DNA of 64,000 nt. It comes from Planctopirus ephydatiae. Lineage in GTDB: Bacteria; Planctomycetota; Planctomycetia; Planctomycetales; Planctomycetaceae. Below the pieces are notes generated by a model that searched no databases, was not told where the DNA came from, and was given only the letters and a program-made list of their open reading frames with translations. A program made the position numbers and the translations under genes. Below are positions 43,162-47,974 of the stretch, in pieces. How positions within the stretch are numbered: the first letter of the stretch is position 1; every line of letters begins with the position of its first letter. The DNA lies in NCBI RefSeq assembly GCF_007752345.1, contig NZ_CP036299.1, forward strand, positions 3,373,501 to 3,437,500. The letters run 5' to 3'.

Positions 43162-43191
43162 GCATACTATATTCTCTTGCAATAAGTATGC
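43162..43191. promoter_or_regulatory. Inverted repeat before the monooxygenase-FeoB unit
   Basis: GCATACTATATT (43162-43173) and AATAAGTATGC (43181-43191) are inverted copies, with 7 perfect bases at the outer ends. It lies about 75 bases before the start at 43267 and contains a TATATT string that could be a -10 element. Candidate operator for a metal-responsive or other regulator. Confidence 0.4.
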
Positions 43192-43266
43192 ATTTCAGTT
43201 GGTGTTGAAATGGTGTGGTTTACTTTCAACGAGATCTTTTCAGGGTTTTTCCCAAAGGATTCCACG

Positions 43267-44400
43267 ATGATTCGACAGGCTCATGAATTCGACGTGGTCG
43301 TGATTGGAGCAGGGCCAGCAGGGATCGGGGTTGGTTGTGTGCTCAGGGCGCTTGGCTTGCAGAACTTTGTCGTATTCGACAAGCACGAAGTCGGCGCCAG
43401 TTTTCAACGCTGGCCTCGGGAGATGCGACTGATAACTCCATCATTTCCCAGTAACGCTTATGGATTTCCTGACCTCAATGCTATTACCGCCGATACTTCT
43501 CCCGGGTACACACTTGAGACCGAACACCCAACGGGTCGTCAATACGCACGTTATCTGCGTCGTGTTGTGAAGGAGTTCAACGTCCCGGTGCAAACCGGAG
43601 TCGATGTCACCGAAATTCGATCGATCACTGACGGCTTCGAGATCATGACTCATGCTGGTACGAGGACAGCAAAATACGTCATCTGGGCTGCTGGCGAGTT
43701 TCAGTATCCGATAGTCGATCCTTTTCCCGGTGCTGAGTATTGCCGGCATACAGCAACCGTTTCCAGCTGGAGAGATGTCGCTGGTGATGAGTTCCTGATC
43801 ATTGGCGGCTACGAAAGTGGGATCGATGCAGCTACAGCGCTATGTCGATTGGGAAAGACGGTAACGGTTCTCGATCGCCGGTCCATTTCGTCGTCTGTGA
43901 CATCTGATCCAAGTGTTGCACTCTCTCCTTTTACTCAAGCTCGTCTGCGACAGGCCGATCGAACGGGGCGGCTGTCAGTACTGGAAAACTTCAAGGTGAT
44001 GCAGGTTCAACGCGAGGGTGAAGAGTTTCTGGTGATTGGGAGGCAGCGTCAGAAGAAGCAAACTGTCTTTCGCACAAAGGTTCCACCCCTTCTGGCGACA
44101 GGTTTTGCTGGCAGTCTCTCTTTAGTTGAGTCTCATTTTGCAAGAGATGAAGGCGGCGTACTCCAACTTTCGTCTGACGATGAGTCAACGATTACGCCAG
44201 GGCTGTTTCTATGCGGACCAATGGTGCGGCATGGAGCGATCATCATGTGCTTCATCTACAAGTACCGACAGCGATTTGCAGTTGTCGCGAATGCGATTGG
44301 TCAACGAATGGGGCTGGATCTCTCGCCACTGGAAGTTTATCGCAAAAAGCAGATGTTTCTGGATGACTTGTCATGCTGCCTCGATGAATGTGCCTGTTGA
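43267..44400 (+). CDS. Flavin-containing monooxygenase-like FAD/NAD(P) oxidoreductase
   Basis: A 377-residue flavoprotein. The FAD loop is VVVIGAGPAGIGVG (residues 11-24), the NAD(P) loop FLIIGGYESGIDAA (near 180), and the C-terminal LFLCGPMVRHG closes the FAD site. It resembles CzcO/ArsO-type monooxygenases often sited near metal resistance genes; the strict FMO fingerprint FxGxxxHxxx(Y/F) is not evident. The ATG at 43267 has AAAGGA before it; the frame to 43210 is not needed. The FeoB-like gene follows after 68 bases, and an arsenic operon lies behind that. Role in arsenic or iron handling is inferred from context. Confidence 0.82.
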   Translation: MIRQAHEFDVVVIGAGPAGIGVGCVLRALGLQNFVVFDKHEVGASFQRWPREMRLITPSFPSNAYGFPDLNAITADTSPGYTLETEHPTGRQYARYLRRVVKEFNVPVQTGVDVTEIRSITDGFEIMTHAGTRTAKYVIWAAGEFQYPIVDPFPGAEYCRHTATVSSWRDVAGDEFLIIGGYESGIDAATALCRLGKTVTVLDRRSISSSVTSDPSVALSPFTQARLRQADRTGRLSVLENFKVMQVQREGEEFLVIGRQRQKKQTVFRTKVPPLLATGFAGSLSLVESHFARDEGGVLQLSSDDESTITPGLFLCGPMVRHGAIIMCFIYKYRQRFAVVANAIGQRMGLDLSPLEVYRKKQMFLDDLSCCLDECAC

Positions 44401-44468
44401 GCATGCGCTGTTGCAATCAGTGAAAGTTCCCACTGAAACCTTCCGTTTTTATTTAGCAGGGATCCATC

Positions 44469-46148
44469 GTGACGATAACAATAGCTCTAGAACGTCAAAC
44501 AGTGCTTCTGGCAGGTCGAGAAAGTGTGGGGAAAAGCCAGCTGGCAGCTGCGTGGGCAAAGCAGCCAGCCCGTTCGGCAAACTTTCGTGGCTCAACTGTT
44601 CACATCGAACACTACCGTACTGAGCGATTCGATCTGGTTGATACTCCGGGAATTCTTAGAACCTCCGACAGCGAGACGACTCGTCTGACTATACAGGAAA
44701 TGGACCAGCACGAAACCGTGCTTCTCGTTGTACAGGCAACCTGTCTCGACGAGGACTTAGCCGAGATGCTGCCATTATTGAAAGGGAAGCGAGGCGCGGT
44801 CGCTGTCACATTCTGGGATAAAGTACAACCGGGAGAGGCCTCGCAAGAGGCTCTTGAACGTCTGGAAAGGGAGACCAGGCTACGATTCATTGCTATGAAT
44901 GCTCGGATGCCAGCAACAGAACAACTACGCGAACTCGAGGAAGCCATCGAGCATTCACAGGCTTTTCCTGAGAAACCACCAAAGTCAAAAACTGGATGGC
45001 GCATTGAGCCTAGACCGGGGATTCTGGAAGGACGATTCGGGGCAGTTTTTTGCCTGATACTACTTCTGATTCCAGCCCTTCTGACAATATTTGGTGCGAA
45101 TCGACTGGCCGACTTTCTGCATCCACTGGTGGCTCAAGCAATCCAACCAGCTATTGAGTGGGTCAATGCCAGTTTTCCCGCATGGCTGGCAGCCCCATTG
45201 ACTGCCGAATATGACGACTTTGGCTATGGTTTGCTCAATATGGGGCCTTTTTTGCTCCTGTGGGCGTTTCCGACCGTTGTGCTGTTCGCAGTAATTAGCG
45301 CGATCTACAAAACGACAGGACTGATTGAACGGATCAATGTCACTTTGCATCCTTTAGTTCGCCCACTGGGCTTAAGTGGCAGAGACCTGGTGCGAGTTCT
45401 AGTAGGATTCGGCTGCAATGTGCCCGCGGTGATCAGTACTCGAGCATGCTCCTCCTGTTCGCGGGGGAATGCAATCTCGGCGATCTCTTTTGGGGCAGCC
45501 TGCAGTTATCAACTGCCCGCGACGCTGGCAGTTCTCTCTGCAGGTGCAGTCGCTAATGGAACGAATCCATTATGGCCCATGTTTGGCTATTTCGCCTATC
45601 TACTCGTAACCACGATGATTTATCTGAGGCTGACATCAACTTCTGTTTCGAGAGATCGCCTGAACATGCTGATGCATTTCCAGCGACCATTCCTGCAATG
45701 GCCGTCGTGGGCGGCGATTTATCGCGAAATCCGAGGGACTTTGGAACAGTTCCTATTTCAGGCCATGCCGATTTTCGTCGTGATCTGTGGAGTGACATCA
45801 TTACTTGCGTACAGTGGAGCGATTGCGGTTCTTTCAGCGGTACTCTCACCAATCATGACCATCTTTAATCTGCCAGCTTCAGCATCAGTCGCTATGGTCA
45901 TGGCAAGCATTCGCAAGGATGGAATATTCCTGCTGACACCGTTGGAGGGTACTGCCACTCCCATGACAACGCTCCAGTTTCTTACTGCCGTGTATCTTGC
46001 AGGAGTATTGCTTCCTTGTCTCGTCACTGCATTGCAGATTTCGCGAGAGATGGGCTGGCAGTTTGCCGTGAAAATGATGGCTCGTCAGGCGATCTTCGCT
46101 TCTCTTTTCGCCGCACTTCTGGGATGGATCGGTGCCTTTGGGAACTGA
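44469..46148 (+). CDS. FeoB-like membrane GTPase transporter (short G domain)
   Basis: A 559-residue protein shaped like ferrous iron transporter FeoB but shorter (typical 650-780). The N-terminal G domain has P-loop GRESVGKS (16-23) and DTPGI (59-63), but the NxxD base-specificity motif reads TFWD, so guanine binding may be altered, and the switch-I region is very short. Two Gate domains follow: GFGCNVPAVISTRACSSC (near 315) and LLPCLVT (near 520) keep both pore cysteines; two extra cysteines (ACSSC) follow the first. About ten membrane segments. It could move Fe(II) or another ion; its place between a flavoprotein and an arsenic operon leaves the substrate open. Confidence 0.85.
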   Translation: MTITIALERQTVLLAGRESVGKSQLAAAWAKQPARSANFRGSTVHIEHYRTERFDLVDTPGILRTSDSETTRLTIQEMDQHETVLLVVQATCLDEDLAEMLPLLKGKRGAVAVTFWDKVQPGEASQEALERLERETRLRFIAMNARMPATEQLRELEEAIEHSQAFPEKPPKSKTGWRIEPRPGILEGRFGAVFCLILLLIPALLTIFGANRLADFLHPLVAQAIQPAIEWVNASFPAWLAAPLTAEYDDFGYGLLNMGPFLLLWAFPTVVLFAVISAIYKTTGLIERINVTLHPLVRPLGLSGRDLVRVLVGFGCNVPAVISTRACSSCSRGNAISAISFGAACSYQLPATLAVLSAGAVANGTNPLWPMFGYFAYLLVTTMIYLRLTSTSVSRDRLNMLMHFQRPFLQWPSWAAIYREIRGTLEQFLFQAMPIFVVICGVTSLLAYSGAIAVLSAVLSPIMTIFNLPASASVAMVMASIRKDGIFLLTPLEGTATPMTTLQFLTAVYLAGVLLPCLVTALQISREMGWQFAVKMMARQAIFASLFAALLGWIGAFGN

Positions 46149-46152
46149 TTTC

Positions 46153-46180
46153 GTCACTCAGTAAAGACATACTGAGTGAC
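46153..46180. terminator. Hairpin after the FeoB-like gene
   Basis: GTCACTCAGTA (46153-46163) pairs perfectly with TACTGAGTGAC (46170-46180) around a 6-base loop, five bases after the stop codon. There is no T tract, so it could be a terminator or an mRNA-stabilising 3' end. Confidence 0.6.
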
Positions 46181-46418
46181 TGATGGTGTCGCTATTTCAA
46201 GCGAAGATTTCGCGTGCAACTTAACCGGCGACGTCAGTCAAACGGAACTCTCTTCCTCCGTATTCGTAGGTAAGAGATTCGTGGTCAAGACAAGGTGGCC
46301 AAGACATCGCTTCGCACGCCTTGTTAACACCATTCACGAGAAGTTAGTCATGAATGTAAACTCTTGCAGATCTCTAAACCCTGGTCATAATTTGTTGCTC
46401 TTTGACTACCCTAGAAGA

Positions 46419-46457
46419 AGTTTCTTGTCCCCTCTGCAGGGGCTGAAACTGTTTTTT
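46419..46457 (+). terminator. Rho-independent terminator or attenuator upstream of arsR
   Basis: AGTTTC (46419-46424) with GAAACT (46445-46450) and inner CCCCT (46429-46433) with AGGGG (46438-46442), followed by GTTTTTT. It lies 56 bases before the arsR start, so it insulates the ars operon from the FeoB-like transcript or acts as an attenuator if the ars promoter lies further upstream. Confidence 0.72.
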
Positions 46458-46489
46458 GAGCCGGATGTTCGCTTTCATTTTCGAAAATC

Positions 46490-46507
46490 CATGGCTATAT
46501 TGCCATG
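46490..46507. promoter_or_regulatory. Candidate ArsR operator
   Basis: CATGGC-TATATT-GCCATG has perfect 6-base arms around a 6-base AT core and ends 5 bases before the arsR ATG. Size, symmetry and position suit autoregulation by an ArsR dimer overlapping the -10 region. Confidence 0.55.
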
Positions 46508-46512
46508 CAACC

Positions 46513-46848
46513 ATGAACAACGAGCAGCAAATCAAGTACGAAGCCCGGGCGAAGATCGCGAAGGCGCTGGCACATCCTGCCAGATTGTTCATGCTCGACT
46601 GGATGCATGATCGCGAATGTTCCGTCTCCGAACTCACCGCTGAACTAGAACTTGATCAATCGACGGTTTCCAAACATCTGGCTGTGCTGCGCGAAGCAGG
46701 GATTGTTTCAGTACGCAAAGCGGGAACAACGTCCTTCTACCGCGTCAGCTGTGGTTGTCTCGATGGGTTCTTCACCTGCCTGGAAAACGTGCTCAAGTGC
46801 GACATCACCAAGCGACAACAAAGCCTCGCTGAGGATTCAACCTCATGA
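46513..46848 (+). CDS. arsR: ArsR-family arsenic-responsive repressor
   Basis: A 111-residue winged-helix repressor: ALAHPARLFML, then the recognition helix region SVSELTAELELDQSTVSKHLAVLREAGIV and a wing (VRKAGTTSFYRV). The classical ELCVCDL arsenite motif of the E. coli-type protein is missing: only C36 is found there. Instead a C-terminal cysteine cluster, C80, C82, C89 and C96, is present, like the C-terminal site known from Acidithiobacillus ferrooxidans ArsR. ATG 46513 is chosen over the frame start at 46456. Its stop overlaps the aquaporin start (ATGA). It should repress the operon until arsenite binds. Confidence 0.88.
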   Translation: MNNEQQIKYEARAKIAKALAHPARLFMLDWMHDRECSVSELTAELELDQSTVSKHLAVLREAGIVSVRKAGTTSFYRVSCGCLDGFFTCLENVLKCDITKRQQSLAEDSTS

Positions 46849-47561
46849 GCACACGAAGCTATGTTGCTGAAGCGATCGGCACTTTCACCCTGGTATTTGC
46901 CGGAGCAGGGGCGATCGTGGTTAACGATCTCAGTGGCGGTGTCATTACTCATCCCGGGATTGCCTTAACTTTCGGCCTGGTCGTCATGGCCATGATCTAC
47001 GCCCTGGGTGATATTTCTGGAGCCCACCTGAACCCCGCCGTGACGCTGGGTTTCTGGCTTGCACGGCGACTGCCAGCACGCCAATTGGTACCTTATATCG
47101 GCAGCCAGATATTGGGTGCTGTGATTGCAGCCAGCCTGTTACGAATGCTCTTCCTCTACCATCCCACTTTGGGTGCAACGTTGCCGGTCTATTTCTGGTG
47201 GCAGGCTCTGATTATGGAAATCATTCTCACCGCCATATTGATGTTTGTCATTTTGTGTGTCTCCACGGGGGCTCGCGAAAAAGGTGTGATGGCAGGAGCA
47301 GCCATTGGTGCAGTGGTCGCGTTTGAAGCCATGTTCGGCGGCCCGATCTCAGGGGCTTCGATGAATCCGGCACGCTCACTCGGGCCAGCCGTTGTCAGCG
47401 GAAATCTCGCCTCATTGTGGATTTATATGTTGGCACCATGCATCGGATCAGCGTTCGCTGTCTTGAGTTTTCAGCAATTACACCAGGAAATTTCCATACC
47501 TGCCAATTCACAAGACGAACTCCAAACCAATAACTCCACAACAGACAGGCTCGAATCATGA
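46845..47561 (+). CDS. Aquaglyceroporin (AqpS-like MIP channel) of the ars operon
   Basis: A 238-residue MIP-family channel with six membrane segments and the two NPA motifs, AHLNPAVT (near residue 62) and ASMNPARS (near 182). In rhizobial ars operons the AqpS channel lets arsenite, made by ArsC, leave the cell down its gradient and replaces an active ArsB/Acr3 pump. No ArsB or Acr3 gene is seen here, so that role fits, though water or glycerol transport cannot be excluded. It overlaps arsR and arsC by four bases each, so the three are translationally coupled. Confidence 0.9.
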   Translation: MSTRSYVAEAIGTFTLVFAGAGAIVVNDLSGGVITHPGIALTFGLVVMAMIYALGDISGAHLNPAVTLGFWLARRLPARQLVPYIGSQILGAVIAASLLRMLFLYHPTLGATLPVYFWWQALIMEIILTAILMFVILCVSTGAREKGVMAGAAIGAVVAFEAMFGGPISGASMNPARSLGPAVVSGNLASLWIYMLAPCIGSAFAVLSFQQLHQEISIPANSQDELQTNNSTTDRLES

Positions 47562-47974
47562 AACGCGTACTCATTCTTTGCACGGGAAACTCCTGTCGCT
47601 CGCAAATGGCCGAAGGTTTATGGAACTCTCTGGGTCAGCCGACATGGGAAGCGGTCTCGGCAGGCTCACGTCCTGCTGGCTACGTTCATCCGCTGGCCGT
47701 GCGAGCCATGGGAGAACTGGGGATCGATATTTCGAACCTCGTGAGTAAGTCGGTCGCGCCCTATCAGAATGAGAACTTCGATCTGGTGGTCACCGTGTGC
47801 GATAACGCCAAAGAGGATTGCCCTGTGTTCCCGGGAGCGAAACTCACGCTGCATTGGCCATTTGAGGACCCGGCCCATGCCGAAGGGAACGACGAGGAAA
47901 AGATGGTCATGTTCCGCCGTGTGCGTGATGAAATCCGTGATACCATCAGTGGCTATCTCGCAAGTGGGACGTAA
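47558..47974 (+). CDS. arsC: Arsenate reductase, thioredoxin-coupled (LMW-phosphatase type)
   Basis: A 138-residue protein with the LMW-phosphatase loop LCTGNSCRS (catalytic C8) and a redox pair C81 and C88 in VCDNAKEDC, the C-x6-C spacing that defines the Staphylococcus pI258-type arsenate reductase. It reduces arsenate to arsenite by a cysteine relay regenerated by thioredoxin. Length is normal. It is the last gene of the arsR-aqpS-arsC operon. Confidence 0.95.
   Translation: MKRVLILCTGNSCRSQMAEGLWNSLGQPTWEAVSAGSRPAGYVHPLAVRAMGELGIDISNLVSKSVAPYQNENFDLVVTVCDNAKEDCPVFPGAKLTLHWPFEDPAHAEGNDEEKMVMFRRVRDEIRDTISGYLASGT

Follow-up and report, generated by a model that had tools for sequence, protein, structure and literature searches.

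As bacterial zinc importers, the Zur review PMC6103462 names ATP-binding cassette (ABC) systems, ZIP proteins, and TonB-dependent receptors, and Zur-type regulons also contain zinc-sparing paralogues (PMC2770081, PMC6103462). Among the known systems closest to the subject of this study are Zur regulons that include COG0523 genes (PMC2770081, PMC6103462, and PMC2823685), with which we compare a gene pair of Planctopirus ephydatiae that codes for a flavoprotein and a FeoB-like membrane protein and lies in a stretch of 64,000 nucleotides of contig NZ_CP036299.1, hereafter referred to as the window. The likeness consists in the co-location of COG0523, HisI, ZnuA, and Fur-type genes with members of the family and in a candidate operator that is palindromic with a 7-1-7-like layout. 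The pair looks like an undescribed kit for zinc starvation, and we put at roughly 60 % the probability that it is a Zur-controlled zinc-starvation module, in which the FeoB-derived GTPase/gate would import zinc with the assistance of the thiol-rich flavoprotein.

Taken singly, both proteins have described counterparts. The FeoB-like protein shares with FeoB the N-terminal G domain, two Gate stretches, and the cysteines C316, C345, and C517, but differs in having Thr or Ser in G4, an extra CxxC motif, a clade of its own, and zinc rather than iron genes as neighbours. The flavoprotein shares full-length homology, fold, and a cysteine tail with the Staphylococcus aureus structure 3D1C, which, however, is labelled only as a 'putative' flavin-containing monooxygenase; the YpdA/Bdr bacillithiol disulfide reductases and ArsO have the same flavin adenine dinucleotide (FAD)/nicotinamide adenine dinucleotide (phosphate) (NAD(P)) fold and give partial profile matches. 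Possible traces of the pair are found in earlier work: a Zur cluster was marked on pLVPK in 2009 (PMC2770081), adjacent FAD and feoB-like genes were listed without function for S. haemolyticus (PMC3637587), and cg0795 of Corynebacterium glutamicum, which may be a relative, was described as an 'oxidoreductase' that neighbours a COG0523 gene, under Zur control (PMC2823685). The word 'FeoB' does not occur in the main texts of PMC2770081, PMC6103462, PMC10957091, and PMC8000910, nor in two Klebsiella zinc papers (PMC10797113, PMC7874612), and literature searches, whose coverage excluded most subscription papers, listed no work that treats the pair as a zinc system.

A candidate Zur operator in planctomycetes

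The element TGCA-N7-TGCA upstream of the flavoprotein gene (Table 1) was found by comparing its promoter with the G274 promoter and with that of the distant zigA gene of the host, whose product scores 570.7 bits against a ZigA model cut-off of 600. Across the 5.2 Mb genome, the strict pattern TGCAWWANNNWTGCA occurs in three places (reversed control: 0), namely the flavoprotein promoter, the zigA promoter, and a terminator-like hairpin at 1190634, directly behind an apparent tRNA gene as read by eye, which was rejected as a site. This rarity is partly circular because the pattern was built from three of the promoters compared, and the independent tests weigh more for the same reason.

In a set of 30 planctomycete zigA promoters (including the host's own) the element is present in 12, as compared to a mean of 0.23 and a maximum of 2 in 500 dinucleotide shuffles, and among spacings from 3 to 14 a spacing of 7 yields these 12 and the next best, 13, only 4. 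Seven of the 12 element-bearing promoters furthermore have a TTGCAA-like word whose spacing to a TA-rich word is that of a −35 box. The element also lies within 700 bp upstream of 10 of the 16 planctomycete pair clusters tested, at a density of 1.16 per kb, as compared to 0.041 per kb in the remainder of these loci; cluster starts are approximate, and four of the 20 loci were left out, two at contig edges (L166, L175), one duplicate (L171), and one with no adjacent flavoprotein gene (L177). At the flavoprotein promoter of the same-genus genome G350, the TGCA ends are kept and the inner bases changed. We know of no experimental link between Zur and this planctomycete element, which is offered here as a candidate Zur operator for the group. 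As for the inverted-repeat control site that the preliminary description had assigned to the pair, the spaced element, which may or may not be the repeat meant there, stands and the plain palindrome does not.

Outside the planctomycetes, relatives of the pair carry sites that resemble known Zur boxes. Against the Escherichia coli Zur motif printed in PMC6103462, the flavoprotein promoter of Klebsiella matches at 16 of 18 positions and the hisI-zigA promoter of that plasmid at all 18, a site in Pseudoalteromonas at 17 of 18, and one in Erwinia, upstream of a refined start, at 17 of 18. Cyanobacterial and Bacilli loci were scored with consensus words: four of the five cyanobacterial loci match at 14, 13, 12, and 12 of 14 positions and the fifth at 9, and the sites before the flavoprotein gene in Bacilli match at 13, 11, 10, and 8 of 14, with a match of 13 or 14 of 14 elsewhere in each of the four loci. 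Regulation of the pair by zinc is, on these sequence comparisons, highly probable.

Zinc genes rather than ars genes as neighbours

The neighbourhood census covered 21 genome-contig loci (here and below, those among the matches listed), 4 plasmid loci, and 20 planctomycete loci, with markers sought by single phmmer queries in flanks of up to 10 kb, many of which are shortened by contig ends. The flavoprotein gene lies at most 200 bp from the FeoB-like gene in 16/21, 4/4, and 16/20 of these loci, respectively, which bears out the earlier suggestion of a pair in that the two are conserved together. Within 10 kb, a COG0523 gene is present in 11/21, 4/4, and 14/20 loci (29 of all 45). Near the pair, Fur-type genes occur in 4/21, 2/4, and 9/20, HisI in 3/21, 2/4, and 1/20, S14 in 2/21, 2/4, and 0/20, and ZnuA in 4/21, 0/4, and 0/20 loci; ZnuC-like matches turned out to be generic ABC ATPases and were excluded from the zinc evidence. 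Homologues of the second Fur-type protein of the host (region G000:C1 2054048-2054365) are encoded near the pair in 8 of the 20 planctomycete loci.

ArsC or AqpS, on the other hand, is near the pair in 0/21, 0/4, and 1/20 loci, the single case being G350, in which the aquaporin gene is 7.4 kb away and arsC lies beyond the stretch examined. This genome is 94 % collinear with the window through the pair and then has about 6.9 kb of other genes before arsR, as compared to about 0.2 kb in the window. Because of these intervening genes, the ars adjacency is taken to be local to the host genome, and the pair appears to stand next to arsenic-resistance genes by chance only. Of two further ArsR-like matches, one (L173) was retained at a distance of 3.3 kb and the other (L032, E 2e-5) fell below the census threshold.

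The ars set itself is an ordinary one of arsR, aquaporin, and arsC genes with overlapping ends, and neither Acr3 (TIGR00832) nor ArsB (PF02040) has a match across the whole 5.2 Mb genome. It had been described beforehand as such a set without a pump, with the flavoprotein and FeoB-like genes directly upstream, and both statements hold (Table 1).

Table 1. Features of the gene pair and the adjoining ars set (coordinates of the window).
Feature	Position	Strand	Details and basis
Candidate Zur operator, TGCAATAAGTATGCA (TGCA-N7-TGCA)	43178..43192	+	upstream of flavoprotein gene; promoter comparison
FAD/NAD(P) flavoprotein, 377 aa	43267..44400	+	alternative start 43210, short form more likely; Pfam Pyr_redox_3
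C-terminal CCxxxCxC tail of flavoprotein	44374..44397	+	aligned rows
FeoB-like membrane protein, 559 aa	44469..46148	+	GTG start; Pfam Gate, MMR_HSR1, FeoB_N
G domain of FeoB-like protein, residues ~10-160	44496..44948	+	MMR_HSR1, FeoB_N; profile hits on FeoB G domains of known structure
Family-specific CxxC (C327, C330), first gate segment	45447..45458	+	alignment columns
arsR	3' end at 46848		
Aquaporin (AqpS) gene	46845-47561		
arsC	47558-47974		

The FeoB-like protein

Pfam places MMR_HSR1 at residues 12-101 and FeoB_N at 11-147 of the FeoB-like protein, with Gate in two stretches. An alignment of 48 family rows (including two duplicates, L171 = L010 and L177 = L011, and two rows, L166 and L175, cut by contig ends) with 63 FeoB frames revealed that the G1/G3 residues G16, G21, K22, D58, P60, and G61 are kept in 48/48 family rows. 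In the NxxD motif of G4, by contrast, Asn is replaced by Thr in 43 and by Ser in 5 of the 48 rows while Asp is kept in all, so that the weak G4 motif noticed earlier is a trait of the whole family. C327 and C330 are invariant by alignment column (48/48; a CxxC regular expression alone recovers 42), and the corresponding gate motif occurs in 0/63 FeoB frames. The earlier impression of extra cysteines in the gate is accordingly correct for this CxxC, which is specific to the family, but not for C316, C345, and C517, which are common to FeoB and kept in 48/48 family rows; that the additional cysteines fit a metal transporter is upheld.

The distinctness of the family is also apparent from the FeoB equivalog model TIGR00437, which the protein matches with 106.2 bits against a cut-off of 315.65, and from a quick tree of 47 family rows and 32 of the 63 FeoB frames, in which a single branch separates the two sets with a value of 100 in the Shimodaira–Hasegawa-like approximate likelihood-ratio test, albeit with a long-branch warning. 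The host genome has a separate, ordinary FeoB with an open frame of 796 aa, next to which the protein is indeed 'short', as it had been called, though only in this relative sense. An AlphaFold2 model built with 22 sequences (mean predicted local distance difference test score, pLDDT, 86.3) matched FeoB G domains in Foldseek, and no full FeoB membrane domain was among the matches listed.

The flavoprotein

The start at 43267 is preceded by an AGG-like ribosome site, as judged by eye. In 42 aligned rows, the tail cysteines C370, C371, C375, and C377 are present in 40, 39, 41, and 41 rows, respectively, and C328 in all 42. The modelled structure (pLDDT 86.8) is closest to 3D1C, with 34 % identity and template modelling scores of 0.86/0.90, and an alignment of the two covers the full length from residue 9 onward in short-form numbering, cysteine tail included; YpdA/Bdr disulfide reductases are the next-best fold matches. 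By profile, the protein belongs with neither of the named enzymes, with 87 bits against a cut-off of 339.9 for YpdA/Bdr and 68.3 bits against a cut-off of 425 for ArsO, and the ArsO-like character ascribed to it at first is not sustained.

Proposed mechanism and alternative explanations

In the proposed mechanism, a Zur-like repressor of the Fur type would occupy the candidate operator and keep both genes off when zinc is plentiful, and repression would be lifted and the pair expressed when zinc is scarce. The gate path formed by C316, C345, and C517 together with C327/C330 would then admit Zn(II) selectively into the cell, and the G domain would modulate the opening of the gate. On the cytosolic side, the flavoprotein may use NAD(P)H to maintain the gate thiols in their reduced state, or may take the ion on its CCxxxCxC tail and hand it on towards ZigA; the choice between thiol reduction and ion acceptance is a guess. 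We lean slightly towards zinc as the imported metal. It is an even bet that the pair represents a new class of zinc importer, namely a GTPase-controlled gate derived from FeoB with an added thiol filter and a dedicated NAD(P)H-dependent flavoprotein, which would either serve as reductant of the filter or receive the ion, spread over bacteria and archaea and including hundreds of Klebsiella plasmid records.

Several observations weigh against a Zur-controlled zinc module. In the window, no zinc gene stands beside the pair, and the family is spread patchily (20 of 397 genomes in a sample of the planctomycete class). The exact element is absent from 18 of the 30 zigA promoters and, within 700 bp, from 6 of the 16 tested planctomycete clusters; the promoter-like spacing of TTGCAA-like and TA-rich words is missing at the flavoprotein gene, whose promoter also fared no better than shuffles in a generic palindrome scan; and a looser pattern has no occurrence near the only ZnuA-family gene or the two Fur genes of the genome.

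An unlikely alternative that leaves the zinc regulation untouched is that the pair belongs to a Zur regulon but imports a stand-in metal (cobalt, manganese, or iron) or, in another variant, moves a zinc-binding small molecule made or modified by the flavoprotein. The zinc-sparing paralogues of Zur regulons (PMC2770081 and PMC6103462) speak in its favour, the nearest relatives of the FeoB-like protein by sequence are iron transporters, and those of the flavoprotein include flavin monooxygenases. The CxxC added to the gate in this family, however, suits a thiol-loving metal, and no metallophore biosynthesis genes were noticed in the loci inspected, although no search was aimed at them. Iron in particular is disfavoured because the genome has a separate FeoB and the neighbours of the pair are zinc genes.

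It is more doubtful still that the gate acts as a membrane sensor or redox partner whose CxxC is reduced by the flavoprotein, the pair then serving to signal or to protect thiols under zinc shortage. Such a role would agree with the fold likeness to the YpdA/Bdr disulfide reductases, with the potential of the CxxC as a redox switch, and with a natural gate form that has no G domain (see below), but the conservation of C316, C345, and C517 in every family row is hard to explain without passage of an ion. The reading of the preliminary description, a channel for metalloids or iron acting alongside the ars operon, draws on adjacency and a shared strand in the window and on ars genes about 7 kb away in G350 as well, but is very improbable and was rejected on the census, in which the pair occurs mainly with zinc-limitation systems and ArsC/AqpS is near it in 0/25 loci outside and 1/20 (G350) inside the planctomycetes, and on the comparison with G350 and its intervening genes, the pair moreover having its own operator element in common with zigA and the genome its own FeoB.

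If the zinc module is real, a FeoB-type zinc gate would add a further kind of bacterial zinc importer and suggest that a few cysteines can retune the FeoB fold from iron to zinc, so that FeoB selectivity becomes open to testing through residue swaps in laboratory strains. The gene pair, which also makes up part of a Zur cluster of common Klebsiella plasmids, would gain a function. The database labels of the two proteins are 'nucleoside recognition domain-containing protein' and 'NAD(P)/FAD-dependent oxidoreductase'.

Distribution and further observations

From bacterial and archaeal genomes scanned with a profile, at least 80 loci were kept, of which at least 21 are counted in the FeoB-like family, with E values up to 3e-67. 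The remaining 59 among the matches listed are far weaker (E 6e-25 or weaker) and were read as FeoBs. In planctomycetes, the family was detected in 3 of 294 genomes of a phylum sample and in 2 of 4 sampled genomes of the host genus; of the two that lack it, one has a completeness of 88 %. Searching plasmids with the FeoB-like protein (tblastn) matched 553 records, 499 of them from Klebsiella, all at less than 60 % identity. The sole weak match inspected (H100) is an ordinary FeoB, and the annotated neighbourhoods of four strong ones hold the flavoprotein together with ZigA/COG0523, Fur-type regulators, HisI, and a spare S14, the flavoprotein gene of one plasmid locus (L013) being interrupted by a stop in the database record. 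The K. pneumoniae plasmid NZ_CP151760 (L015), of a type represented by the 499 matching Klebsiella records, carries zigA, hisI, and a couple of Fur-like genes alongside the pair, and in the archaeon Nitrosopumilus MED-G94 (L022 7751-11611) the two genes are divergently oriented and about 1 kb apart.

The Staphylococcus arlettae plasmid NZ_CP094807 (L194 5938-8362) carries a flavoprotein gene followed by one for a 385-aa gate protein without a G domain, adjoining ZnuA and COG0523 genes. This protein retains all five family cysteines, which hints at a core made up of gate and flavoprotein, to which the GTPase is an add-on.

Many planctomycete loci encode, directly 3' of the FeoB-like gene, a small conserved protein (e. 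g., L100 7954-8706) without a Pfam or NCBIfam match, which is present within 10 kb of that gene in 16 of 20; in the window it is not near the pair, and the homologue of the host comes after the distant zigA. Fifteen other stretches with the looser pattern (6 in the host genome, 9 in G350) were read, most of them within or between unrelated genes. Near-perfect copies of the element are found in a corresponding promoter of the host (G000:C1 977783; L178 2501) and of G350 (G350:C1 5413118; L185 2501), which are possible further targets and precede genes that we take to be of the DUF1800 and DUF1501 types. At another place in G350 (L187 2501-4326), the gene preceded by the element combines DUF4198-like parts with Kelch ones.

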